The position numbers were made by a program, and so were the translations under genes. Positions 20,426 through 38,317 of a stretch of 64,000 bases of DNA are shown here, one piece after another (the stretch's first letter is position 1; each line of letters begins with the position of its first letter). The DNA comes from Methanosarcina sp. KYL-1. Its GTDB lineage: Archaea; Halobacteriota; Methanosarcinia; Methanosarcinales; Methanosarcinaceae. The stretch spans positions 62,001 through 126,000 of the forward strand of contig NZ_VOUA01000006.1 of assembly GCF_024372725.1 (NCBI RefSeq), given 5' to 3'. The notes under the pieces were generated by a model. It saw only the letters and a list, made by a program, of their open reading frames with translations, did no database searches and was not told where the DNA came from.

Positions 20426-21079
20426 TTACGCCGTCTTATTCCCCAGGATGATCTCTATAAATTCCTTTGTTTCCCTTTTTACATCATCACTGCATACTAT
20501 TGCAGAAATTGCAACCAGGCTGTCAGCCCCGCTTTCAACTACAATCCTGCAGTTTTCCCTGTTTATTCCGCCGATAGCGACTACGGGAATTTTTATGGCA
20601 CTTTTAACTTCCCTTATCATATCAGGCCCGATTCCATTTCCAGCATCCTTTTTGGTAGACGTATTGAATATGGGTCCGAGCCCGACATAATCAGCCCCGT
20701 TTTTTTCGGCTTCAATAGCCTCATCCCTGTTATGGACGGTAAGCCCAATTATCTTCCCGGCCCCGAGAAGTCTTCTTGCGGTATCAATTGGCATGTCATC
20801 CTGGCCGATATGCACCCCGTCGGCACCAACCGCTAAAGCAACATCGATTCTGTCGTTCACCAGAAATATTGCATTTTCCCTGCATATGCTCCTGATTTCG
20901 GATGCTTCGTTTATCATTTCTTTTGTGCTTTTGTTTTTCTCCCGGTACTGGATAATCCTGCAGCCTGATTCAACTGCCGCTTTTACATCGGATAAAGTAC
21001 CTTTCTTTGAGAGTTCGGAATCCGTCACAAGGTAAAAGTCAATCTCTTCTAACAGGAGTTTCTGGTTCATTGCTGGCAT
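20426..21079 (-). CDS. thiE: Thiamine phosphate synthase
   Basis: A 217-residue ThiE, a TIM-barrel enzyme that joins hydroxymethylpyrimidine diphosphate and thiazole phosphate to make thiamine phosphate. Signatures: [64 protein letters not shown] and [11 protein letters not shown]. Length is typical. It is the second gene after thiM, 45 bases downstream on the same strand. Confidence 0.97.
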
Positions 21080-21124
21080 GTTTATCAGAGTCGAAATTTT
21101 GTGGAAGGTCAGGTTTATTCCAGG

Positions 21125-21910
21125 TTAGCATTCTTCAAAGTTCATCTTATTTTTTACCATTTCATCCGTGAGGTTGAATACCTCATCATACAAATTCACC
21201 TTAAAGCTCCCGGGACCGTTTGCCTTTTCGGCTGCAAGTTCCCCGGCAACTCCAAAGCAGCAAAGGGCATCTCTGGCAGCACCGCAGTAATCGGGATTGA
21301 CCGCAGCAAAGGAACCGATTATCGAGGCAGCCACGCACCCGGTCCCGACAATTGACCCCATCAGCTCATGCCCGTTCTTTACGATAAATGTCTTTTCTCC
21401 GTCACTTACTATGTCTTCTTTTCCTGTCATCACGACAGTGCAGGCCTTTGCTTTTGCAAGCCCTTTTGCAACCTGCCTGGGGTCGGCATCGATTGAAGTT
21501 GCTTCAACTCCTTTCGTCTCAGCGTTTTCGCCTGCCAGTTTTGCGATTTCGGAATAGTTGCCCTTGATGACATCGATGCGGACGGAGTCAAGGATTTTTG
21601 CAGCCATCTCGTCCCTGAACTTCGTAGCCCCGACCCCCACTGCATCGAGCACAACCGGGATTCCCTTCTCGTTTGCAGCAGCAGCAGAGAGAAGCATAGA
21701 ATCGATGATTTCAACTGTCAGGGTCCCGATATTGAGCACGAGAGCAGACGAGATCCCGGTCATGTCGGCACATTCTTCAGGGGCATGAGCCATCACGGGG
21801 AGGGCTCCTATTGCCCTTGTCATGTTTGCGCAGTCGTAAATGGTTACCCAGTTGGTGATGTGGTGGACCAGGGGTTTTGTTTCCCTTATTGTTTTTAGCG
21901 GGTTTTGCAT
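21125..21910 (-). CDS. thiM: Hydroxyethylthiazole kinase
   Basis: A 261-residue ThiM, a ribokinase-like enzyme that phosphorylates 4-methyl-5-(2-hydroxyethyl)thiazole in thiamine salvage. Signatures: [61 protein letters not shown] and the anion-hole region [17 protein letters not shown] chose the ATG at 21910 rather than one at 21967 because CGAGGAAT stands 5 bases before it and homologues begin near [15 protein letters not shown]. The bases between contain three copies of GAGGAA(T/C)AT, which look like repeated ribosome binding sites. Confidence 0.95.
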
Positions 21911-22586
21911 AAGTATTCCTCGATGTTCCTCAATGTTCCTCGATATTCCTCGGTAAGCCGGAAGCATTCGTCCGTTATGAACCTCATAAACAGTTATTTA
22001 AATATTATTATAGGGCATGTCCAGAGGCAGATAATATCAACATGATAAATATAAAATATAAATTATATAAACTTCTTCCTCGTACCGGTTAAGCTTCTCA
22101 GCTTTACAAAACCATAACTTTACAAAACCGGAGATGTAAGTTGCAAAGGAATTCGATACGAAAAATCTTTTGCTTTTCTATAGTGGTCTTCAGATTTCCT
22201 TTCCGGTAATCCTTTTTATTCTTCACTTCGCTGATCCCCGGGCTCTCACCGGGTGCCGAAGGCAGCCGGCCTTTTCCAGATGTAAAAGAAAAGACAAAAA
22301 ACCGAATAGAATGACCCCGCCAGTTCAGGGTTTCAGGCTACAATAACCCAAAATCAGTTTTAATTTTAAAGAATTTTTAACGTTAAGGAGCAGACTTAGC
22401 CTGTGCCTGACCTGCTTCATATGAAGGCACTGGAAGGAAAAGAACGATTTAAGATAGAGAAATCTATCCTTAAATTTGAGAATATTGTGAAAAAGAGCAA
22501 AGGTTAAAAAGATTAGCGAGTATACCTGAACAGAAAATCTTGAAAGAATAAAAATCGAAGCCAATCGAAACCCTCATTATAATACA
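21911..22586. other. Left flank of the defence island, no gene seen
   Basis: An AT-rich stretch of about 675 bases between thiM and the restriction system. A minus-strand open frame at 22325-22564 is Leu/Phe-rich without a ribosome binding site, and I do not accept it. Near 22240-22280 there is a GC-rich inverted-repeat patch (CCGGGTGCCGAAGGCAGCCGG). No integrase or tRNA marks the boundary. Confidence 0.5.
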
Positions 22587-22688
22587 ATGAAAACAGACGT
22601 CAGGCTAAAAATGATTGAAAATAACGTTAACCTTACCACAATAGACGAGCAGCATCCGAAGCTGCAAGCCGGGATTACAGAGGAATAA
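22587..22688 (+). CDS. Possible 33-residue leader peptide before hsdM
   Basis: A short open frame (MKTDVRLKMIENNVNLTTIDEQ and onward) ends 2 bases before the hsdM ATG and contains the hsdM Shine-Dalgarno sequence (AGAGG) within its last codons. It may be a remnant of an upstream gene or a translated leader. The sequence resembles no family I know, and its own ribosome binding site is weak. Confidence 0.3.
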   Translation: MKTDVRLKMIENNVNLTTIDEQHPKLQAGITEE

Positions 22689-22690
22689 AA

Positions 22691-24229
22691 ATGATAAACG
22701 GTGAACTGAAAAACAAAATCGACCGCATCTGGGACGTTTTCTGGTCAAGCGGCATCTCCAACCCCCTTGAAGTTATCGAGCAAATTACTTACCTTCTATT
22801 TTTACGGCGGCTGGACGAACTCCACACGCTGGAAGAAAACAGATCAGCCCGCCTCAAACGCCCCATGGAGCGCCGCATTTTCCCCGAAGGCGAGGACCAG
22901 AAAGGCCTCCCTTACGAATCGATGCGCTGGTCACGCTTCAAGAACTCCTCTCCGGCTGAGATGTATACAATAGTGGGCGAGCACGTCTTCCCCTTCCTCC
23001 GCACCCTCGGCGGGGACAATTCCACCTATGCCCACCACATGAAAGACGCCCGCTTCACCATCCCCACGCCTGCCCTGCTGTCCAGAGTCGTAGACATGCT
23101 CGACGACGTGCCCATGGAAGACCGCGATACCAAAGGCGACCTCTATGAATACATGCTCGGCAAGATCGCAACAGCCGGGCAGAACGGCCAGTTCCGTACC
23201 CCGCGCCACATCATCCAGCTTATGGTTGAGCTGACTGCCCCCCAGCCAACCGACATAATCTGCGACCCCGCATGCGGCACAGCCGGCTTTCTCGTAGCTG
23301 CCGGCGAAAACCTGCGTAAGCACCACCCCCAGCTCCTCCACGACGCAAAGTTAAAACAGCACTTCCACCACGGTATGTTCCACGGCTTCGACTTCGACAA
23401 CACCATGCTCCGCATCGGCAGCATGAACATGCTCCTGCACGGCGTGGAAAACCCCGACATCCGCTACCGCGACTCCCTTGCCCAGGACTATGCCAGCGAC
23501 GAAGAAGCTTACACGCTCGTCCTTGCAAATCCGCCCTTTGCCGGCAGCCTGGACTATGAGAGCACTTCCAAAGAACTCCAGAAGGTCGTCAAGACCAAAA
23601 AGACCGAACTGCTTTTCGTAGCCCTTTTCATGCGCCTGCTCAAACCCGGCGGCCGGGCAGCCGTAATCGTCCCCGACGGCGTGCTCTTCGGCTCCAGCAA
23701 AGCCCACAAGGAACTTCGCCGCATGCTTGTTGAAGAGCAGAAGCTTGATGCGATTGTTTCACTTCCGAGCGGCGTTTTCAAGCCCTATGCCGGCGTTTCG
23801 ACTGCCATCCTCCTTTTCACCAAAACCAACTCCGGAGGCACAGACAATGTCTGGTTCTACGACATGAAAGCTGACGGCTGGAGCCTTGACGATAAGCGCA
23901 ATCCTCTCCTGAGCGAGGACAAACTGGGCCCTGTTCCCTCAACCGAACTTTCCGGGGACGAGCACGCCAGAAACAACCTTCCCGATGTCCTTGCCCGCTG
24001 GCAGGAACGCAATAACAGCGAACTCAAACGTGCCAGAACCGAGAAGAGCTTCTGCGTGCCAAAAGCCGACATCGCAATCCAGGGCTACGACCTTTCCCTC
24101 AACCGCTACAAGGAAGTTGTGCATGAGGAAGTGGAATACAGAGCCCCGAAAGAGATACTTGAAAGCCTCGCAAAGCTGGAAGCCGAGATTCAGCAGGGGA
24201 TGAAAGAACTGGAAGGGATGCTGAAGTGA
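22691..24229 (+). CDS. hsdM: Type I restriction-modification DNA methyltransferase subunit
   Basis: A 512-residue HsdM, the N6-adenine methyltransferase subunit of a type I system. The N-terminal HsdM_N helical domain (LKNKIDRIWDVFWSSGISNPLEVIEQITYLLFLRRLD) precedes the catalytic domain with SAM-binding motif I DPACGTAGF (192-200) and catalytic NPPF (280-283). Codon use is GC-rich, unlike the neighbouring hsdS. The stop overlaps the GTG start of hsdS by 4 bases. With HsdS and HsdR it forms the complex that methylates or cuts DNA. Confidence 0.96.
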   Translation: MINGELKNKIDRIWDVFWSSGISNPLEVIEQITYLLFLRRLDELHTLEENRSARLKRPMERRIFPEGEDQKGLPYESMRWSRFKNSSPAEMYTIVGEHVFPFLRTLGGDNSTYAHHMKDARFTIPTPALLSRVVDMLDDVPMEDRDTKGDLYEYMLGKIATAGQNGQFRTPRHIIQLMVELTAPQPTDIICDPACGTAGFLVAAGENLRKHHPQLLHDAKLKQHFHHGMFHGFDFDNTMLRIGSMNMLLHGVENPDIRYRDSLAQDYASDEEAYTLVLANPPFAGSLDYESTSKELQKVVKTKKTELLFVALFMRLLKPGGRAAVIVPDGVLFGSSKAHKELRRMLVEEQKLDAIVSLPSGVFKPYAGVSTAILLFTKTNSGGTDNVWFYDMKADGWSLDDKRNPLLSEDKLGPVPSTELSGDEHARNNLPDVLARWQERNNSELKRARTEKSFCVPKADIAIQGYDLSLNRYKEVVHEEVEYRAPKEILESLAKLEAEIQQGMKELEGMLK

Positions 24230-25416
24230 AAGCTAAGTGGCCAACAGTGCGTCTTGATGAGTGTTGTGAGATTGTTTCTGGTGCAACACCTAGAACTTCG
24301 AATGATGAGTACTGGGATGGTGACATCTACTGGGCTACACCAAAGGATTTGAGTGATCTTGATGGTGCATATATTTCAGATACGCCTCGAAAGTTAACCC
24401 GCTCTGGATTGGAGAGCTGTGCAGCGGCGATTCTTCCAGCAGGTTCTGTGTTATTCAGTTCCCGAGCTCCCATAGGTCATGTAGCAATAAACACAATACC
24501 AATGGCAACAAACCAAGGTTTCAAAAGTTTCGTTCCAAAAACCGACAAAATTCATGCAAAATTTTTGTATTATTGGCTCCGCACTAAGCGGTCTTATCTG
24601 GAAAGTCTCGGAAATGGTGCAACTTTCAAAGAAGTCTCAAAATCTGTAATTTCACGTGTTAAAATTGCTCTCCCTCCTTTAGAGGAACAAAGAAGAATTG
24701 CAGATATTCTGGACCGTGCGGAGGCTCTCCGGGCCAAACGTCGAGCAGCCCTTGCCCAGCTCGATGAGCTCACAGAAGCCGTTTTTATCGAGATGTTCGG
24801 TGATCCTGTAGCTAATCCCAAAGGATGGCAATGTGTTCTACTTGGTAAGTACACTACAAAAATTGGTAGTGGAGCTACACCAACAGGTGGAGAATCCGCG
24901 TACAAAAAATCTGGAATCTCATTAATTCGCAGCCTAAACGTTCGAGATGGAGAATTTACATATAAAGATCTTGCATTCATAGACGAACAACAAGCCAGAA
25001 AACTCGCGAATGTACAGGTTGAAGAAAACGATGTTCTTTTGAATATTACTGGAGCCTCAGTTGCTCGTGTATGTAGAGTTCCTAAAACAATTTTGCCAGC
25101 ACGAGTAAATCAGCACGTCTCTATAATTAGACCGAACTCCAATCTAAATTTTATATTCCTTGAGCAATTGCTGCTATCACCTAGTATGAAAAGAAAACTA
25201 CTGAGAATCAGCGGGGCTGGTGCAACACGAGAAGCAATCACCAAAGCACAACTTGAAGAGTTTGAAGTGATTCTTCCTCCACTCATTCTCCAAAAAGAAT
25301 TTGCTCACAGAATTGCTACTATGGAAAAGCTAAAAGCTGTGCACAAAGCCTCTTTAGCAGAACTGGATGAGCTTTTTGCGTCTCTCCAGCACCGCGCTTT
25401 CAGGGGGGAACTGTAA
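24226..25416 (+). CDS. hsdS: Type I restriction-modification specificity subunit
   Basis: A 396-residue HsdS with two target-recognition domains, each about 150 residues (first WPTVRLDECCEIVSGATPRTS; second GWQCVLLGKYTTKIGSGATPTGG). A conserved central helix separates them (PPLEEQRRIADILDRAEALRAKRRAALAQLDELTEAVF) and another closes the protein. It sets the DNA sequence recognised by the complex. The recognition domains are AT-rich while the conserved spacer is GC-rich like hsdM and hsdR, a sign of domain exchange. The start is GTG overlapping the hsdM stop. Confidence 0.95.
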   Translation: MKAKWPTVRLDECCEIVSGATPRTSNDEYWDGDIYWATPKDLSDLDGAYISDTPRKLTRSGLESCAAAILPAGSVLFSSRAPIGHVAINTIPMATNQGFKSFVPKTDKIHAKFLYYWLRTKRSYLESLGNGATFKEVSKSVISRVKIALPPLEEQRRIADILDRAEALRAKRRAALAQLDELTEAVFIEMFGDPVANPKGWQCVLLGKYTTKIGSGATPTGGESAYKKSGISLIRSLNVRDGEFTYKDLAFIDEQQARKLANVQVEENDVLLNITGASVARVCRVPKTILPARVNQHVSIIRPNSNLNFIFLEQLLLSPSMKRKLLRISGAGATREAITKAQLEEFEVILPPLILQKEFAHRIATMEKLKAVHKASLAELDELFASLQHRAFRGEL

Positions 25417-25461
25417 GATGGACACCGCTGCCCATAAACTCAGCTCCAACGGAGGAGATCT

Positions 25462-28400
25462 ATGACCAACTTTGCCTTTCTCGAAGCCGAATGGCCTTCT
25501 TTGTATGAGGCAGCCGAAAAAGTCTCAAATGCAGTTTATCCTGACCCTCGTACTGCCTGTTTTTACGCTCGCAGGGCGCTGGAGCTGGCTGTGCAGTGGA
25601 TGTATAAGCACGACTCTGCACTGCTCCTGCCGTATCAGGACAATTTGAGTGCTCTTATCCATGAGCCTACATTCAAGGAAGTTGCGGGAGAGGCAATTTT
25701 CAACAAGGCACGGGTCATTACCCGGCTTGGAAACCAGGCCGTGCACAGCAACCGTGCCATCCTGGAATACGATTCAGTGACAGCCGTGCGTGAACTTTTC
25801 CATATAAGCTACTGGCTGGCACGCACCTATGCCAGGGAAGGGAAGCCTGAACCGGGACTGGGCTTTAACCCTGAAGACCTGCCAAAAACAACTGTCCCGA
25901 AGCAGACGATAGAGCAGCTCCAGAAGCTGGAAACAAACCTGCGGGAAAAGGACGAAAAACTTTCCGGGCTGCTTGCCGACAAATCCGCACTGGACGAAGA
26001 ACTCAAACGCCTGCGGGCTGAGGTTGCGAAAGCAAAGAAAGCGGCAGCAGCACAGCCGGATACCCACGATTATTCCGAAGCTCAGACCAGGGACTACTTT
26101 ATCGACCTGCTGCTCAAGGAGGCTGGCTGGGCGCTGGACCAGCCCCGCGACCGGGAGTTTGAAGTCTCAGGCATGCCGAACGGAAGCGGGGTCGGTTTTG
26201 TAGATTACGTGCTCTGGGGCGACGACGGGAAGCCCCTTGCCCTCGTGGAAGCAAAACGTACCAGGCGCGATCCTCGGATTGGCCAGCAGCAGGCAAAACT
26301 CTACGCCGACTGCCTGGAAAAACAGTTCGGGCAGAGGCCGGTGATCTTCTACTCAAACGGGTACGAAAACTGGATATGGGATGATGCCAGCTATCCTCCG
26401 AGGCAGGTGCAGGGCTTCTACAAAAAAGCTGAACTGGAACTGCTTATCCAGCGGCGCAGGAGCCGGCGGTCCCTCTGCAAAGCCGAGATTGATTCCTCCA
26501 TTGTCGAACGCTACTATCAGACCCGTGCCATCCGCCGCATCGGGGAAGCTTTTGAACAGGACAATGACCGGAAAGCCCTGGTAGTAATGGCAACAGGCGC
26601 AGGCAAGACCCGAACTGTAATTGCACTCTGCGATCTGCTTATGCGCTGCAACTGGGTCAAAAGGGTGCTGTTCCTTGCCGACCGGGTGGCGCTTGTCAAC
26701 CAGGCGGTAAATGCCTTCAAGCTTCACCTGCCCGATTCCTCACCTGTAAACCTTGTCACGGAAAAGGATACAGAGGGGCGCGTGTTCGTTTCGACCTATC
26801 CGACAATGATGAAACAGATAGAAGAGATGAACAACGGGCAGCGCCGCTTTGGAGTCGGGCACTTCGACCTCGTGATCATCGACGAGGCACACCGATCGGT
26901 TTTCAAGAAATACAAAGCTATTTTCGACTACTTCGATTCCCTGCTTGTGGGCCTTACGGCAACGCCAAAAAATGAAATCGAGCGCAATACCTACAGCCTC
27001 TTTGACCTCGAAAACGGCGTTCCCACCGATGCCTACCATCTGGATGAAGCCGTAAAAGACGGTTTTCTGGTCCCGGCAAAAGCGGTTTCGGTGCCGCTGA
27101 AATTCCAGCGCCAGGGGATCAATTACGACGAGCTTTCCGACGAAGATAAAGAGCAGTGGGACGCGCTGGAGTGGGACGAGGACGGGGAAATCCCTGACCG
27201 GGTAGAAGCCGAAGCCGTGAACAGGTGGCTGTTTAACAAGGATACCGTGGACAAAGTGCTGGCGCACCTGATGACCCGGGGGCTGAAAGTCGCCGGAGGC
27301 GACCGCCTGGGCAAGACCATCCTCTTTGCCAAAAACCAGGCTCATGCTGAATATATTGCCGAACGGTTCAATGCCAATTATCCGCATTACAAGGGTGAGT
27401 TTGCCCGTGCTATCACTTTCAAGATCGAGTACGCCCAGAGCCTGATAGACAATTTCTCAACCAGGGAAAAAGCCCCGCATATTGCCCTCTCGGTGGACAT
27501 GCTCGACACCGGGATCGACGTACCGGAGGTCGTGAACCTGGTGTTCTTCAAACTTGTCCGTTCCAAAACAAAGTTCTGGCAGATGGTGGGACGCGGAACC
27601 AGGCTCTGTCCGGACCTTTTCGAACCTGGAAAAGACAAACAGTTCTTTTATCTTTTCGATTACTGCCAGAACCTGGAGTTCTTCAGCCAGGATCCGGAAA
27701 CCACCGACGGCACAATTGGGGAGTCTCTGGGCACACGCCTGTTCAAGTCCCGGCTTGATTTAATTTCCGAGCTGGACAGCAGGCTTGAGAATTATATCGA
27801 CTGCGAAGTCGGCGTGGAGACCCGGGAAATATATGGTGAGCCAAAAACGGAAGCCGAAGTCCGCTGCTCGGTTGCCAGAATGCTGCACAGTGAAATTGCC
27901 TCGATGAACGTGGAAAACTTCGTCGTCAGGCCAAAGAGAAAGCTGGTAGAGAAATATTCCAGTCCCGATGCCTGGGTGAAGCTCTCCCGCGAAGAACTCT
28001 CTGAGCTTTCCTATGAAGTAGCCGGCCTGCCCTCGGAACTGGAACCTGAAGCGGAAGAAGCTAAGCGTTTTGACCACCTGGTACTGAACCTGCAGCTGGC
28101 TTTACTGCGTGCGGAACCCGCCTTTGAGCGCCTGTGCAGGCAGGTGAGGGAAATTGCAGGCCTGCTGGAAGAGAAATCAGCCATCCCGATGGTAAGGGAC
28201 CAGATGGCTCTGATTCTGGATGTGCAGACCGATGAATGGTGGGAGAATGTGACAACTCCCATGCTGGAAACGCTTCGACGGCGCCTGCGCGACCTGGTAA
28301 AGCTGATCGAAAAGCGCCACCGGAAGCCCATTTACACCGACTTCGAGGACGTTATGGGCGGCGAAACCGATGTGGAGCTGCCGGGCTTTGTTTCAGCCGG

Positions 28401-28899
28401 AGATTTCGAGAAATTCCGTGCCAAGACCCGGGCTTTCCTCCTTGAACACCAGGACCTTCCAGTCATTCATAAGCTCAGGATGAACATAGCTCTAACTGCG
28501 GATGACCTTGAAGAATTGGAGCAGATACTCTCTAAAAGCGGCCTGGGCGGACCTGAAGAAATCGCCCGCGCCAGAGAGGAATCGCACGGGCTTGGCCTTT
28601 TCGTGCGTTCAATGGTGGGGCTGGATAGGGAAGCTGCAAAGCAGGCGCTTTCCATATTCCTTTTAGGCAAGACTCTTAACGCAAACCAGATCGAATTCAT
28701 AAACCATATCATAAACCATCTTACCGAACACGGCGCAATAGATGCTGCCCTGCTTTACGAATCCCCCTTCACAGACCTTACGCCGCTGGGCCCTGACGGG
28801 CTCTTTACCTCCACTCAGGTGGATGAGTTGATAGCGGCTCTGGAGCACATTACGGCAACAGCACTGGCATCATCGGGTTCGCAAGAAACTATAGCTTGA
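25462..28899 (+). CDS. hsdR: Type I restriction enzyme, motor/endonuclease subunit
   Basis: A 1145-residue HsdR of the EcoEI-like group. Residues 1-140 form a DUF4145-like helical domain, 150-195 a coiled coil, and about 205-300 the HSDR_N endonuclease with D248 and E263-A-K265 as the PD-(D/E)xK core. The SF2 translocase follows (Walker A ATGAGKT near 377-383, then DEAH, TATPKN, and the C-terminal motor motif MVGRGTRLCPDL), and finally an EcoEI_R_C-type helical tail. It cuts unmodified DNA after ATP-driven translocation. Start: ATG with GGAGGAG 5-6 bases upstream. The gene lies 45 bases after hsdS. Confidence 0.95.
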   Translation: MTNFAFLEAEWPSLYEAAEKVSNAVYPDPRTACFYARRALELAVQWMYKHDSALLLPYQDNLSALIHEPTFKEVAGEAIFNKARVITRLGNQAVHSNRAILEYDSVTAVRELFHISYWLARTYAREGKPEPGLGFNPEDLPKTTVPKQTIEQLQKLETNLREKDEKLSGLLADKSALDEELKRLRAEVAKAKKAAAAQPDTHDYSEAQTRDYFIDLLLKEAGWALDQPRDREFEVSGMPNGSGVGFVDYVLWGDDGKPLALVEAKRTRRDPRIGQQQAKLYADCLEKQFGQRPVIFYSNGYENWIWDDASYPPRQVQGFYKKAELELLIQRRRSRRSLCKAEIDSSIVERYYQTRAIRRIGEAFEQDNDRKALVVMATGAGKTRTVIALCDLLMRCNWVKRVLFLADRVALVNQAVNAFKLHLPDSSPVNLVTEKDTEGRVFVSTYPTMMKQIEEMNNGQRRFGVGHFDLVIIDEAHRSVFKKYKAIFDYFDSLLVGLTATPKNEIERNTYSLFDLENGVPTDAYHLDEAVKDGFLVPAKAVSVPLKFQRQGINYDELSDEDKEQWDALEWDEDGEIPDRVEAEAVNRWLFNKDTVDKVLAHLMTRGLKVAGGDRLGKTILFAKNQAHAEYIAERFNANYPHYKGEFARAITFKIEYAQSLIDNFSTREKAPHIALSVDMLDTGIDVPEVVNLVFFKLVRSKTKFWQMVGRGTRLCPDLFEPGKDKQFFYLFDYCQNLEFFSQDPETTDGTIGESLGTRLFKSRLDLISELDSRLENYIDCEVGVETREIYGEPKTEAEVRCSVARMLHSEIASMNVENFVVRPKRKLVEKYSSPDAWVKLSREELSELSYEVAGLPSELEPEAEEAKRFDHLVLNLQLALLRAEPAFERLCRQVREIAGLLEEKSAIPMVRDQMALILDVQTDEWWENVTTPMLETLRRRLRDLVKLIEKRHRKPIYTDFEDVMGGETDVELPGFVSAGDFEKFRAKTRAFLLEHQDLPVIHKLRMNIALTADDLEELEQILSKSGLGGPEEIARAREESHGLGLFVRSMVGLDREAAKQALSIFLLGKTLNANQIEFINHIINHLTEHGAIDAALLYESPFTDLTPLGPDGLFTSTQVDELIAALEHITATALASSGSQETIA

Positions 28900-28941
28900 G
28901 GGTCGTTGAAATGTTTAAAATTGAAGTATGGAAGTGAAGTG

Positions 28942-30567
28942 ATGTTACAGCCTCAAAACCAAAACAAAAAATATGAACATTTGTTTTCAGATATAGATCA
29001 GGGATATCTAAAGATCCCCAAATTCCAGAGAGATTTTGTTTGGAGTCAAGCTAAAACAGCCAGGTTAATTGACAGTATCATCAAAGGTTTTCCAATTGGA
29101 ACTTTTATATTCTGGAAAACTCGTGAGGAATTACGCCATGTAAGAAACCTGGGAAATATCGATCTTCCAGAAACACCAAAAGGTGATGCTGTTTCATATG
29201 TTTTGGATGGGCAGCAACGTATTACTTCACTATATGCTCTAAGGAAAGGTCTGAAAATCACAACAAATGATAAAAAAGATGTTGACTACAAAGATATCTA
29301 TGTCAACCTTGGATTTGAGCCGGATTCTGATGAAGAAGTTGTTTCCGTAGAAAAACCTGAAGAGTATTCTTCAATTTCTGTTTACGATCTTTTAAATTCA
29401 AGTCTCGTAAACTTAATGAAAAAATACAATGACTATGAACTGGAAAAGATCGAAAAATACCAGAAACGTCTTACTAATTACGATTTTTCAACTATAGTAA
29501 TCTCTGATTACCCTATCGATATTGCCTGTGAAATATTTACCCGCATCAATACCAGCGGACAGGAACTAACTCTTTTTGAAATCATGGTTGCAAAAACCTA
29601 TGATCAGGAACTTAATTTTGACCTTGCCAGAGAATATTCCAATCTTATTTGCAATGAAGCAGGCGAAAAAGATCTTAAAGATGCCGGATTTGATACGATA
29701 CCTTCCTCTACGGTTCTTCAATGTGTATCGGCACATCTCTGCCAGCAGGTCAGGCGGAAAGACATTTTAAAACTAAACAAGCGTGAATTCATAGATAGTT
29801 GGTATACTGTGAAAGAAGGAATATTTTCTGCAGTTGACTATGTAAGGACTCAACTGCGAATTCCCGTATCCAAACTATTACCTTACAATGCTTTACTGGT
29901 CCCGCTTTCATATTTCTTTATCAGAAATGGAGGAGAAAGCCCAACAAACCTTCAAAACAAGCTTCTTACTCAATATTTCTGGTGGGCATCTCTTTCAAAT
30001 CGTTTTTCCTCGGGAGCCGAGGGAAAAATTGACACTGATTTAAAAAAGATGGATGATATCCTAAACAAACAACCCCCCAGTTATCGCGGAGAAGAATTAG
30101 ACCTGACAATTGATAAGTTGAGATGGTACTGGTTCAGCACCGGGGATGCTTTTTGTAAAGCGATCTTATGTCTTTACGCTTATTTCGAGCCAAAATCTTT
30201 CAGATCCAACAGTATTGTAAAAATCGATAACTCATGGCTGAAAGTTTCAACAAGCAAAAATTATCACCATTTCTTCCCAAAAAGTTACGTGAAAAAACAA
30301 GGTATCGAGGAGTGGAAAGGGAATTCAATTCTGAATGTAACCATAGTAGACGATTACCTGAATAAGAGTGAAATTGGGTCCAAAGCTCCTGGATATTACA
30401 TGAAGAAATTTGAAGAAAGTAATCCTGAACTTCAAAACACCATGAAAACACATCTTATTGATGATATGGAACTTTATGGGGTATGGGGGAACGATTACGA
30501 GACATTTATAGAAAAACGCGGAGAAAGGATCCTTGAGGAAATCAATAAAAGAATTGAGCCAATTTAA
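28942..30567 (+). CDS. DUF262/HNH protein, GmrSD-like defence nuclease
   Basis: A 541-residue protein. The N-terminal DUF262 (ParB-like NTPase) domain shows IPKFQRDFVW, FPIGTFIFWK and DGQQRITSLYALR. The middle is helical and FTRINTSGQELTLFEIMVAKTY is conserved in the family. The C-terminal segment YHHFFPKSY followed by NSILNVTIVDDYLNKSEIG fits an HNH/DUF1524-type nuclease. This arrangement is shared by GmrSD-type IV enzymes that attack modified DNA. It begins 42 bases after hsdR. I chose the ATG at 28942; an upstream TTG at 28906 would add 12 residues. Base composition drops sharply to AT-rich compared with hsdR, suggesting separate acquisition. Confidence 0.8.
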   Translation: MLQPQNQNKKYEHLFSDIDQGYLKIPKFQRDFVWSQAKTARLIDSIIKGFPIGTFIFWKTREELRHVRNLGNIDLPETPKGDAVSYVLDGQQRITSLYALRKGLKITTNDKKDVDYKDIYVNLGFEPDSDEEVVSVEKPEEYSSISVYDLLNSSLVNLMKKYNDYELEKIEKYQKRLTNYDFSTIVISDYPIDIACEIFTRINTSGQELTLFEIMVAKTYDQELNFDLAREYSNLICNEAGEKDLKDAGFDTIPSSTVLQCVSAHLCQQVRRKDILKLNKREFIDSWYTVKEGIFSAVDYVRTQLRIPVSKLLPYNALLVPLSYFFIRNGGESPTNLQNKLLTQYFWWASLSNRFSSGAEGKIDTDLKKMDDILNKQPPSYRGEELDLTIDKLRWYWFSTGDAFCKAILCLYAYFEPKSFRSNSIVKIDNSWLKVSTSKNYHHFFPKSYVKKQGIEEWKGNSILNVTIVDDYLNKSEIGSKAPGYYMKKFEESNPELQNTMKTHLIDDMELYGVWGNDYETFIEKRGERILEEINKRIEPI

Positions 30568-30642
30568 TGATAAGATAATTTCAAGAGGAAGACGATCATC
30601 CTTCAAATGAGATGATGATAACCGAAGATTCCTGTAGAAGGA

Positions 30643-30776
30643 AATTGTCGCTGAACTGCGGTGACAATTCGTTGAGCAAATTGTCTACTCACTGCTTAGA
30701 CAATTGAGCCTGAAAAATTAAGCAGATCATCTGCTAGAAAGTCCCCCCTAAATTGTGCAGCGGCTTGCTGCACAAT
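30643..30776. other. Four consecutive inverted repeats between defence genes
   Basis: Hairpins at 30643-30669 (AATTGTC/GACAATT), 30679-30705 (AATTGTCTA/TAGACAATT), 30721-30735 (AGCAGAT/ATCTGCT) and 30752-30776 (ATTGTGCAGC/GCTGCACAAT, 5-base loop). Three of the four share the ATTGT/ACAAT edge. They fill the gap before the QueC-like cassette and could be terminators, operators or a structured RNA. Confidence 0.75.
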
Positions 30777-30877
30777 CTACCTCATTCTGCCTGAAACCTG
30801 ATAGAAACTACCTGTAAGAATGTTTTAACATAACAAAATGAAAAGAGTTATAAAGTATACCGATAACTCTTAAAATA

Positions 30878-31324
30878 ATGGGTGGAAGAAAAAGTTATTC
30901 TGCTAATGCTTTATTGGGAAGTGGAAGAGCTACAAATCAGAGAGTAGAAAAACTTCAGTCCACACTAAAAGAAGAAGATAACGAAAAAGCTGTGTTACAA
31001 CTTCTTCAAGTCTTAGCTAGCTCAGATCCAGCCCTAAGTACTATTTTGTTAACAGCTAAAATTCTAACTTTAGCCTATAAGATCTACACTGAAGTTGAAA
31101 GCGAATATAAAGAAAGTGGTGATTATGCCACTGCAGTACCCAATGCAATTTTGAAAGTTGCGGGAGATTCAATAGGAAATAAAAAACAGATAATCATTGA
31201 AAACGGAGTGAAAATTTGTTGGAATAAAGTAAAAGAAGAAAATGATATAGATGTAAAAAATTCGGAGGTTGATGAAGTTGTGACTTCAGTAGCCACCGAG
31301 ACAATTTTGGAGATTCTTCAATGA
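30878..31324 (+). CDS. Unrecognised small protein with Met-Gly-Gly N-terminus, QueC-like cassette
   Basis: A 148-residue protein I cannot assign to a family. It starts MGGRKSYSANALLGSG; removal of Met would expose an N-terminal Gly. The rest is mostly helical, with a Leu/Ala-rich segment (VLQLLQVLASSDPALSTILLTAKILTLAYK) that could be an amphipathic or membrane-associated helix pair. The Gly/Ser-rich start recalls QatB proteins of the Qat defence system, which also begin with Met-Gly, but similarity beyond that is not evident and it is shorter. A TATA-like TTATAAAGTATACC lies about 25-30 bases before the ATG, giving a near-leaderless start. The stop overlaps the next gene by 4 bases. Confidence 0.65.
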   Translation: MGGRKSYSANALLGSGRATNQRVEKLQSTLKEEDNEKAVLQLLQVLASSDPALSTILLTAKILTLAYKIYTEVESEYKESGDYATAVPNAILKVAGDSIGNKKQIIIENGVKICWNKVKEENDIDVKNSEVDEVVTSVATETILEILQ

Positions 31325-31608
31325 CCACATTAAGTTTTGAAGATTTTATGATAAAAGCATATTCTAACAGCATTTATAAGATACTAAAAGCGACAATTGA
31401 ATCTAAGGAAGTAAAAGGAGCTTATCTTGAAAAAGAATCTCAAGATAGAGATGATATAGATTCTTTACTTAAAGTTGAATCAAATGAAGTTGCTAAGGAT
31501 TTTGTTGAAGTTTTAAAATCCAAAGGATTTCCGCAAAAAGAGATTTCTGAGGGCGAACAGAAAAAATTACTTAAGGAAATAATCGATGAACATGTCAACA
31601 AGAAGTGA
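31321..31608 (+). CDS. Unrecognised 95-residue protein, QueC-like cassette
   Basis: A small, charged, probably all-helical protein (many Glu and Lys, no Cys or Trp). It resembles no family I know. It overlaps the preceding gene by 4 bases (ATGA) and the following QueC-like gene by 23 bases, so the three are translated as a unit. Such tight coupling of a small helical protein to an enzyme suggests an adaptor or inhibitor role, but the sequence itself gives no catalytic motif. Confidence 0.65.
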   Translation: MTTLSFEDFMIKAYSNSIYKILKATIESKEVKGAYLEKESQDRDDIDSLLKVESNEVAKDFVEVLKSKGFPQKEISEGEQKKLLKEIIDEHVNKK

Positions 31609-32917
31609 AAATCTCGCCTATTTTGAATTCTATACAGCAGATGGTAAAGTAACTTCCATTAAAACCCATCAGTTTAATGAAACTTTTCTCTATGAACTTG
31701 ATCCTTCTTGTAGAACCAGTAAATTTGACCTTTATAACATTGCAATTGCCTTTTTTGAACTTGAAAGACAACTGATCTTGAAGAAGAAAGTAGTAAAAAT
31801 TGTCATACCAATCACCAGTAGTACATTTAATAGAATAGACCAGAAAAATGTGTTAAAAATATTAAAAAGTATTTCGTTATTTATATTTAACAAAAATATA
31901 ATTTTTGAACTTAATCCTTGCTTGAATGTGAATTACCAATCAAATATGATTGAAACTGACCAAAAGTATGATTCTATCTGCCTTTTTTCAGGAGGAGCCG
32001 ATAGTTTTGTAGGAGTTTTGAACGCAAAGAAAAGAAAGGATAAGGTCCTTTCGTTGTTTATATGGCATAAGAGCTCAAAGAAGCTTTGCTCTTATATAAA
32101 AACGCTAAAGACTGAATTACTAGATCAAGAGAAGATATCTTTCGAAAAAGTAAATGTTCCAGATCAGATAAAATATGGATATTCACAATCAAGAGGTTTA
32201 TTGTATCTAATATGTGGTGGAATATATGCCAGCATGTATAAATCAAATAATCTTATTTTGAGTGAATGCGGAGTTACTATTTATCAACCACGTTTCGGCG
32301 AGCTTGATAAAACTACATATACATCTCACCCAGAAATACAAGCATATAGCAGGGAATTGATTAAAGAATTTCTTGGTTTAGAAATCAATATTGAAACTCC
32401 TTTTGAAAACAACACAAAATCCGAAATGTTTGCGATGGCAAGTCGAAAAGAACTCTTAAAAAACACACATTCTTGCATAACCTCGATGTATGGTAAAAAC
32501 ATCGGAACTTGCTATGGTTGTATGATTCGGAGAATAGGCTTTATAGTTGCCGATATTGAAGATTGTGATTATTTACATGATATTTTTACACTTGAAGATG
32601 ATTCGTTTTTAGAGTATGCTAGGACTTATGGGGAAAGAAGAGTTAACGATTTTCTGGAACTCATGAAGTTCTCATTTGATGTTTTGGTCAACTACCAAAA
32701 AATGGATTACAGAAAAAAAGAAAAAATAGAAACTTATGGAAAATACGATCTTTTCAGGCGCTTTTCTCTAGACACTTTTGCTGCAATTTATATCCTTTAT
32801 GAGGAAAAAAATGTCACTCTAAACCCAAGAATTAAAAATGCCTATCTGGATGCTATCAAGTATATAAGTAAAAAAGAAATTGAAGACAGAATAAGTTATG
32901 TAAGAAATCTGAAGTGA
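31586..32917 (+). CDS. QueC-like (QatC-like) ATP-pyrophosphatase family protein
   Basis: A 443-residue protein with an N-terminal extension of about 125 residues before the PP-loop SGGADS (135-140), the ATP site of QueC, the 7-cyano-7-deazaguanine synthase. The zinc region has C297, C309 and C312 (SCITSMYGKNIGTCYGC), but the fourth ligand position holds Ile306. The segment SECGVTIYQPRFGELDKTTYTSHPE differs from housekeeping QueC and resembles the defence-associated QatC branch (R-x-T-THP-like). The protein is much longer than QueC (about 230). It is the last gene of a three-gene overlapping set in a defence island, with no QueD/QueE genes nearby, so a role in queuosine or archaeosine synthesis is unlikely. 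Codon use is very AT-rich. Confidence 0.75.
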   Translation: MNMSTRSENLAYFEFYTADGKVTSIKTHQFNETFLYELDPSCRTSKFDLYNIAIAFFELERQLILKKKVVKIVIPITSSTFNRIDQKNVLKILKSISLFIFNKNIIFELNPCLNVNYQSNMIETDQKYDSICLFSGGADSFVGVLNAKKRKDKVLSLFIWHKSSKKLCSYIKTLKTELLDQEKISFEKVNVPDQIKYGYSQSRGLLYLICGGIYASMYKSNNLILSECGVTIYQPRFGELDKTTYTSHPEIQAYSRELIKEFLGLEINIETPFENNTKSEMFAMASRKELLKNTHSCITSMYGKNIGTCYGCMIRRIGFIVADIEDCDYLHDIFTLEDDSFLEYARTYGERRVNDFLELMKFSFDVLVNYQKMDYRKKEKIETYGKYDLFRRFSLDTFAAIYILYEEKNVTLNPRIKNAYLDAIKYISKKEIEDRISYVRNLK

Positions 32918-33386
32918 AGAATTTAATTCACCTTTGATCTCATATTCGTTGTACTGTTCTACTGTAAGTTTAGGGATGAAGATGTGAAACTGAGATAATT
33001 GAGAACCTGAAGCTGGTCCTGCGGGGGTAAAGGCTTAGGGAGATCCTACTTTTGAAGAAATAGAAGTAAAAGGCTAAGTATGTGTGGGGTTGAGATACCT
33101 CTTTAGCTATCCGTCAGCTGAGAAAAAATCTTATTGTTGTTTTGGAAATTACGTTTTTCCAAATCTCTTTTTCTACATTTTTTTGGAGAGGCGCCGCCAG
33201 GCAAGCTGGCGGGGGCATTTATCTCGATCGGATTCAAAAACGTTCTCGTGGTAAGGAAATCTCCCTCAATTAAGCCGGGGGCATAAACATTTTACAAAAG
33301 AGAAAAATACAACGCGAATGAAACGATTGGGTTTTTTACATTTTGGAAAAGTTCGGAAATTTACCCGGCCCCAAACTTTTGTCCCC
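32918..33386. other. Right flank of the defence island
   Basis: About 470 bases without a gene. It contains a hairpin at 33142-33162 (TTGGAAA/TTTTCCAA) and the second copy of the 37-base dispersed repeat. The plus-strand Phe-rich open frame starting at 33318 is the antisense of the charged tail of the regulator gene. Confidence 0.6.
33178..33214 (-). repeat. 37-base dispersed hairpin repeat, copy 2
   Basis: The reverse complement is identical to 8033-8069. It lies at the right edge of the AT-rich defence island, about 260 bases past the QueC-like gene. Confidence 0.85.
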
Positions 33387-33869
33387 TCATTCTTTTGCTT
33401 TCTCGTTTTTTTGCTTTCCTGTCTTTTTACTGCCTTTTTCCTTTTCTTCTTTTTTTTCTGCTTCCTTTTCTGTTTTTACTTCCTTTTCTGTTTTTACTTC
33501 CTTTTCTGCTTCTGCTTCCTTTTCTACTTCTTTTTCTTCTGCTTTCTTCTCCGGGCCACAGCTGCTGGCACAGCTGCTTTCAATCCCTCTTGCACTCGTG
33601 CAGATTTCACAGGCCCTTGCCACAAAGTCGTCCACTTTATTGTCGATCAGGTCCTGGGCAAGTTTTTCGATCAATTCCTTCGTCTCGCCCTGGAATTCGA
33701 TCCTGTACCCTCTTTTTCCCGAAATATACTGGGAAACTGCCGACGGTGCAATCCCGAGCAACTTTGCAGAAGTTGCCTGCGACTGGCCTCTATTTACAAG
33801 TTCGATTGCAAGACTGGCCCTTATTGCGGGGACCAGATCCCACACAATCTTTTGACACGGAGTTTCCAT
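33387..33869 (-). CDS. HTH regulator with Cys4 motif, divergent from iscS
   Basis: A 160-residue COG2522-type regulator. Residues 5-75 form an XRE-like helix-turn-helix (QATSAKLLGIAPSAVSQYISGKRGYRI). Near residues 100-120 is a four-Cys motif C-x2-C-x9-C-x3-C (CEICTSARGIESSCASSC) that could hold an Fe-S cluster or zinc. The last 50 residues are a Lys/Glu-repeat tail (KEVKTEKE). It is transcribed away from iscS-iscU, and palindromes TCACAATTGTGA lie at both start sites, suggesting that it regulates itself and the ISC genes. I chose the third in-frame ATG (METPCQK) because GTGATGA precedes it; 33881 is an alternative. Confidence 0.8.
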   Translation of the reverse strand: METPCQKIVWDLVPAIRASLAIELVNRGQSQATSAKLLGIAPSAVSQYISGKRGYRIEFQGETKELIEKLAQDLIDNKVDDFVARACEICTSARGIESSCASSCGPEKKAEEKEVEKEAEAEKEVKTEKEVKTEKEAEKKEEKEKGSKKTGKQKNEKAKE

Positions 33870-38111: not shown

Positions 38112-38183
38112 GTCAGAATGGCAGAGTGGCTATGCTTCCGGCTGCAACCCGGAATTATGTGAGTTCGATTCTCACTTCTGACT
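38112..38183 (+). tRNA. tRNA-Cys (GCA), copy 1
   Basis: A 72-base cloverleaf. The acceptor stem GTCAGAA/TTCTGAC is fully paired, the anticodon stem is TCCGG/CCGGA with loop CTGCAAC (anticodon GCA), and the T arm is GTGAG/CTCAC. The discriminator base is T73, a tRNA-Cys identity element. CCA is not encoded. Confidence 0.95.
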
Positions 38184-38210
38184 TTAAAACGTAAACAATG
38201 CAACAAAAGT

Positions 38211-38281
38211 GTCAGAATGGCAGAGTGGCTATGCATCCGGCTGCAGACCGGAAGATGTGAGTTCGATTCTCACTTCTGACT
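38211..38281 (+). tRNA. tRNA-Cys (GCA), copy 2
   Basis: A 71-base near-copy of the first tRNA-Cys, 27 bases downstream. Acceptor, anticodon and T stems are intact, the anticodon is GCA (loop CTGCAGA), and the discriminator is T73. The variable region is one base shorter (AGAT instead of ATTAT). It lies 36 bases before SepCysS, the enzyme that acts on this tRNA. Confidence 0.95.
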
Positions 38282-38317
38282 CTATTGAAACCGGAGAAAA
38301 AGAGGTAAAAATACAGA

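Follow-up and report, generated by a model that had tools for sequence, protein, structure and literature searches.

The tagging of proteins by QueC-family enzymes has only recently been found as a modification used in immunity (PMC13279940), and two bacterial systems built on such enzymes, QatABCD and type IV CBASS, have already been described. In the first, QatB and QatC alone protect against some phages, and both Gly2 of QatB and the ATP site of QatC are essential; QatC has T278 and T280 in place of the Tyr and Asp found in QueC and Cap9 (PMC13279940). In type IV CBASS, Cap9 and its partner CD-NTase bear a 7-amido-7-deazaguanine N-terminal conjugate (PMC11996544). Archaeal QueC-like clusters are mentioned in one paper, without analysis; clusters 7, 8 and 10 of archaeal QueC are uncharacterised and said to be prevalent in methanogens (PMC13329287).

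We describe here a cassette of three genes found in a stretch of 64,000 nucleotides from Methanosarcina sp. KYL-1 (contig NZ_VOUA01000006.1, positions 62,001 to 126,000 of the forward strand), hereafter called the window. The cassette is described in none of the open-access papers searched, and it encodes two small proteins, P1 and P2, followed by a QueC-family enzyme, P3. On balance, we consider it probable that this is an archaeal QatBC-like antiviral module, in which QatB is replaced by P1 and P2 jointly and P3 modifies the N-terminal glycine of P1.

Results

Gene organization and setting of the cassette

The first-pass annotation of the window had proposed three overlapping, AT-rich genes encoding 148, 95 and 443 residues. 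The ORF list bears this out, with a GC content of 31-37% in the cassette against about 45-53% across most of the surrounding DNA. The start of P2 lies on the stop codon of P1 (ATGA, 31321-31324), an overlap of 4 nt, and P3 starts inside the end of P2, an overlap of 23 nt. The features are as follows.

30848..30855, plus strand: TATA-like element TTATAAAG, 23-30 nt 5' of the P1 start codon, read by eye
30878..31324, plus strand: P1, 148 aa, presumed acceptor protein, N-terminus MGGRKSYS
30878..30883, plus strand: Met1-Gly2 codons of P1; Gly2, which is invariant, is the presumed modification site
31321..31608, plus strand: P2, 95 aa, helical, presumed docking subunit, of a family probably related to the QatB C-terminal domain
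31586..32917, plus strand: P3, 443 aa, QatC-like QueC-family enzyme
31988..32005, plus strand: PP-loop SGGADS of P3, residues 135-140, ATP pyrophosphate site
32312..32332, plus strand: TTYTSHP of P3, residues 243-249; T244 and T246 align with QatC T278 and T280 (PMC13279940)
32474..32521, plus strand: zinc-site region of P3, C297 to C312; Ile306 at 32501-32503, Cys in 12 other aligned P3
22691-24229: HsdM, upstream of the cassette
24226-25416: HsdS, upstream of the cassette
25462-28899: HsdR, upstream of the cassette
28906-30567: GmrSD, upstream of the cassette
21970..33440, no strand: island with HsdM, HsdS, HsdR, GmrSD and the cassette; approximate limits; unmatched in syntenic DNA from six Methanosarcina relatives

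The TATA-like element suggests a leaderless or short-leader transcript starting at P1. Similar elements were read by eye 5' of P1 at five other loci (L014, L018, L053, L055 and L056), at distances that, the window included, range over about 23-37 nt. Directly upstream of the cassette stand the type I restriction-modification genes and the GmrSD-like gene that had been noted there beforehand. The latter begins with a TTG codon directly after HsdR, and the top match of its product is the PADLOC candidate family PDC-M55C (189 bits).

No match to the region 21970-33440 was obtained in syntenic DNA from six Methanosarcina relatives. Four of these (L104-L107) have the thi genes and the HTH-nifS block less than 3 kb apart in a single stretch, and in the other two the match is at the nifS side alone. 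As these relatives have no counterpart of it, the segment with the R-M genes, the GmrSD gene and the cassette looks like an acquired island. Compared with the same four relatives, the thiE/thiM block of the window (20426-21967) is inverted relative to the nifS block; a rearrangement therefore accompanies the island. The window also holds a tandem pair of tRNA-Cys genes (38112-38282, anticodon GCA) with 27 bases between them.

The cassette recurs as a mobile unit in archaea

Intact P1-P2-P3 cassettes were found in 16 copies from 15 archaeal genomes, namely this one, two other methanogens and haloarchaea, and the gene order is the same in every copy (P1 148-161 aa, P2 94-148 aa, P3 409-489 aa). 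A distant genome of the same phylum has the same trio in the same order (152, 94 and 409 aa), with 28% identity in P3 and a P1 that reads MGSQ at an internal start. The trio is present on two plasmids of Natrinema sp. DC36 and in Haloferax gibbonsii, the sole match in one scan of genome contigs; the remaining copies came from profile searches of further archaeal genomes. On a Natrinema salinisoli plasmid (L113:7520-7741), a further copy has intact P1 and P3 and a P2 annotated at 222 bp, possibly through a frameshift.

Near the lineage of the window the cassette is rare: among 238 genomes of its class, two weak matches were obtained besides its own, one of them a housekeeping QueC. Archaeal QueC clusters 7, 8 and 10 are likewise archaeal members of the family; by description, they are prevalent in methanogens, whereas P3 is rare there. 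Single-protein scans of viral contigs gave no matches, and a scan with the P3 alignment gave 12 viral loci, the three-gene form being seen at none. Matches on bacterial plasmids were mostly complete Qat operons, and the cassette, unlike Qat, was found here in archaea only.

The association of the small genes with P3 is tight. When the P1 profile was run against 391 haloarchaeal genomes, strong matches appeared in 11, all 11 also P3-positive, together with one marginal match in G691 (E 8e-4). Two P3-positive genomes (G801 and G811) lacked P1, and in both P3 lies near a contig end. P1 was thus not confidently found without P3 in this set, and it is inherited with P3. In the relatives, too, P3 is accompanied by homologues of P1 and P2.

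Comparison of close copies delimits what moves. Plasmid copies from Halobiforma and Halolamina match at 94%, but only within some 2.9 kb that include the cassette; between N. salinisoli and Halobiforma the match is 98% and extends over 4.0 kb, with different neighbours beyond; and the two copies of Natrinema DC36 match over 3.9 kb, with flanks unlike. Because the matching stretch is limited to the cassette region while the neighbours differ beyond it, the three genes are the unit, and this unit is mobile. In pairs with unsaturated dS, dN/dS was 0.11-0.37 for P1 and 0.03-0.54 for P2, and both genes are under purifying selection. The same trio in the same order at 16 loci, together with the low dN/dS of the small genes, makes the cassette more than a chance arrangement.

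As had been claimed from the window alone, the KAP ATPase (QatA) and the TatD nuclease (QatD) are lacking: neither gene adjoins the cassette in the window or in those relatives that were read. The system, first taken as reduced or different, forms a conserved lineage of its own and is not one decayed Qat operon.

P3 is a QatC-like enzyme

P3 matches Pfam QueC (E 3e-10), PADLOC QatC (E 1e-16) and the NCBIfam QatC model NF041925 (E 6e-22), the last with 78 bits against a cut-off of 280 bits; P3 of three relatives reaches 95-142 bits, also below this cut-off. P3 has N- and C-terminal extensions that are absent from QueC, and it keeps the PP-loop, R203, the ExG, T-x-T and PFxxxTK motifs and the Cys residues of QatC. 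Invariant in 11 P3 are S135, G137, D139, S140, R203, E227, G229, T244, T246, P249, P272, F273, T277, K278, C297, C309, C312 and R315. T244 and T246, which line up with the QatC threonines, stand where QueC has Tyr and Asp, and the substrate-site residues of P3 are altogether nearer to those of QatC than to those of QueC or Cap9. Other QatC motifs are incomplete: of the two Arg in the RxR part of RxRxxxF/Y, P3 retains just the second, the WxR of D(x)4R(x)7WxR occurs in no P3 member, and in some members the second residue of the SGGxDS loop is D or E.

In the tree, bacterial QatC (99/98), haloarchaeal P3 (99/98) and QueC (90/76) each lie on one side of a branch, the QueC side consisting of seven QueC and QueC-like proteins and leaving P3 out. 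The P3 of the window and those of G233/G513 form long branches outside the haloarchaeal P3 group. A single clade of all 13 P3 was rejected (AU p 0.012); the branches concerned are long, and the result is perhaps a long-branch effect.

These data bear on the possibility that P3 is a metabolic paralogue of QueC, involved in preQ0 or archaeosine synthesis or in the amidation of a small molecule, with the small genes beside it by accident. P3 shares with housekeeping QueC the PP-loop ATPase core and the Cys-rich zinc region, and its match to Pfam QueC agrees with such a role. We nevertheless hold this to be extremely improbable: the genome already has its own QueC on another contig, T-x-T replaces the YPD substrate motif, the QueC branch leaves P3 out, and P1 is inherited together with P3. 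Moreover, housekeeping QueC is near 220 aa and carries YPDC, whereas P3 has 443 aa with long extensions, stands apart from it in the tree and is linked to small partners. The active-site residues and the tree rule out a housekeeping QueC identity, and the QatC models agree with both in making P3 QatC-like, as had been proposed. The genome's own housekeeping QueC (L003:1462-2163, contig C1) reads SSGLDS instead of SGGxDS and FPDN instead of YPDC.

The SGGADS loop, the QatC-like THP-type segment and the isoleucine in place of a zinc Cys that the first-pass annotation had pointed out are all present in P3. The zinc site of the window copy consists of three Cys and Ile306, and all four Cys occur in each of the 12 other aligned P3; Ile306 is therefore a peculiarity of the window copy. 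The D(x)4R residues are also lost in this copy, unlike in most relatives, and its branch is very long, as would be expected if the family were as described here and the window copy itself were decaying and inactive. Such decay has, in our estimation, a small probability, given that the three frames are open and still overlap and that the PP-loop, T-x-T, C297, C309 and C312 are all kept.

QatC-like enzymes also occurred in other layouts. On a plasmid of Bradyrhizobium japonicum USDA 123 (L012:638-6391), four genes in a row encode a 1041-aa CHAT-domain protein, a 274-aa protein with the N-terminus MGSGSFGGG, a QatC-like enzyme and an ASCH protein. Four viral contigs (L019:1269-3948, L028:1810-4384, L020 and L025) encode QatC-like enzymes that are 598-729 aa long and carry a long extension at the C-terminus, in L028 a Trans_reg_C winged-helix domain; the four enzymes form one clade (100/99), QatA and QatD were not seen adjoining, and in L019 and L028 the enzyme is preceded by a protein of about 265 aa that begins with MGH or MGT. 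L075:3219-5041, on a contig deposited as Listeria phage LM 4-14-1, has two genes, for a 206-aa protein with the N-terminus MGTNRAR and then a 400-aa QatC-like enzyme.

P1 has an invariant Met-Gly start

Window P1 is only 10-18% identical to the other P1, and in an alignment of 11 homologues no column is invariant except M1 and G2. All 13 non-redundant P1 proteins start with MG[GST]. In three of them (L002, L053 and L088) the MG start was chosen over an upstream start; for the copies on plasmids of Natrinema DC36, Halobiforma, Halolamina and N. salinisoli, RefSeq itself uses the MG start, and in L053 the TATA-like element about 23-37 nt 5' of the MG codon argues against the upstream start. In a profile comparison, methanogen and haloarchaeal P1 scored 22.3, against at most 18.5 in 150 shuffles, and on this measure the two are related. 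The invariant Met-Gly is as expected for a protein substrate of a QueC-family enzyme. QatB begins with MGTS and its Gly2 is essential; in P1, Met-Gly is followed by G, S or T.

Window P1 and P2 had no match above threshold in Pfam, NCBIfam or PADLOC, PDB sequence searches with the P1 and P2 profiles gave chance-level matches at most, and the AlphaFold2 model of P1 was unusable (pLDDT 33). Profile comparison of P1 with QatB matched nothing beyond the MG start. P1 might instead be a toxin or membrane effector that is restrained by P2 and switched by P3, perhaps not through Gly2, as in a toxin-antitoxin-like system. A strongly hydrophobic stretch in the P1 of G233/G513 (FFAIAVAAILLIAIL) and a weak match of window P1 to the NCBIfam SLATT family, far below its cut-off (E 0.019), fit this idea; yet the stretch is not kept in haloarchaeal P1, and a toxin would leave the invariant Met-Gly unexplained, so that we regard it as very unlikely.

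The P2 family shows a probable remote likeness to the C-terminal domain of QatB

Using hhalign, the P2 family profile matched the last ~85 columns of the QatB profile with a score of 33.2 (P 1.9e-4, probability 48%). Controls reached at most 17.9 in 146 column shuffles, which do not keep helical periodicity, and 17-18 for reversed profiles; P1, which is helical too, gave no such score against QatB. With half the QatB sequences the score fell to 21.8-29.5. The three methanogen P2 alone matched QatB and haloarchaeal P2 weakly; in global mode their scores nevertheless exceeded those of all shuffles. AlphaFold2, supplied with two sequences per alignment, gave a usable helical model of the Haloferax P2 (pLDDT 77), and a comparison with PDB folds returned no significant match; QatB entries were absent from the results and perhaps from that library. 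A PADLOC match of the L018 P2 to LeoA was weak (E 8e-5, 20 bits) and was rejected as a chance likeness between helices. These profile scores make a remote kinship between P2 and the helical domain at the C-terminus of QatB probable. Of the two small partners first called unknown, P2 thus probably has a counterpart in QatB.

A different origin of the cassette must be considered here. Glycine tagging could take place with P1 and P2 unrelated to QatB, a QueC-family enzyme having been recruited separately, in the manner of type IV CBASS, to act on a new substrate, and the likeness of P2 to QatB would then reflect amphipathic helices. The body of P1, unmatched in QatB, the modest hhalign probability and its fall with fewer QatB sequences, and the absence of QatB from the fold search all fit this scenario. 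However, the P2 score is far above the shuffled and reversed controls and falls at the same C-terminal place in QatB, helical P1 gives no such score, and the substrate site of P3 is nearer to QatC than to QueC or Cap9. Both the separate recruitment and the amphipathic origin of the likeness therefore seem rather unlikely to us.

Discussion

In the QatBC-like module that we favour, P3 would act as a QatC-type ATP pyrophosphatase and activate a carboxylate by adenylation, possibly that of a 7-deazaguanine such as CDG. After removal of the initiator Met of P1, P3 would join this carboxylate to the N-terminal glycine. P2 would dock P1 on P3 within a complex of the three proteins, the MG tail and body of P1 together with P2 standing in for QatB, and the tagged P1 would then act against virus. 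The genome probably has the 7-deazaguanine pathway, given that it encodes a QueC of its own. A CDG-derived tag is nevertheless uncertain, the CDG-recognising residues being replaced by T-x-T.

The defence neighbours of the cassette, in an island that is absent from relatives, count for an antiviral role. Against the QatBC-like reading stand the body of P1, unlike QatB; the weak match of methanogen P2; the missing Arg of RxR and WxR, the altered PP-loops of some members, the loss of a zinc Cys in the window copy and the lack of a single P3 clade; and the flanking genes outside this genome, which are only partly defence-like.

The cassette resembles Qat in its QueC-family enzyme with N- and C-terminal extensions, its T-x-T substrate site and the adjoining gene for a Met-Gly partner, and we infer that it works like QatBC. 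We do not file it as Qat, because QatA and QatD are absent, the QatC cut-off is missed by a wide margin and two QatC motifs, RxR (in its first Arg) and WxR, are missing; moreover, two small partners replace the single QatB. With type IV CBASS it shares a QueC-family enzyme and a partner starting with MGG or MGS, like the N-terminus of the CD-NTase. Nor is it type IV CBASS, however: there is no CD-NTase or Cap10, the neighbours are R-M, GmrSD, HTH and nifS genes, and P3 is about twice as long as Cap9 and has no YxDC substrate motif.

More tentatively, the cassette may stand next to QatABCD and type IV CBASS as a third form of immunity through QueC-based protein conjugation, this one archaeal, with the acceptor tail and the docking domain carried by two proteins, P1 and P2, and with a tag that is perhaps unlike the known ones. 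It would amount to a natural dissection of QatB into a tail carrier and a docking part. The tree hints that the three-gene form may be basal among these enzymes; in that case, a fusion of such components could have given rise to QatB. The minimal archaeal cassette, whose acceptor is a separate protein of about 150 residues, offers a compact target for mass spectrometry, and it is open to experiments in tractable archaea, among them Haloferax volcanii and Methanosarcina acetivorans.
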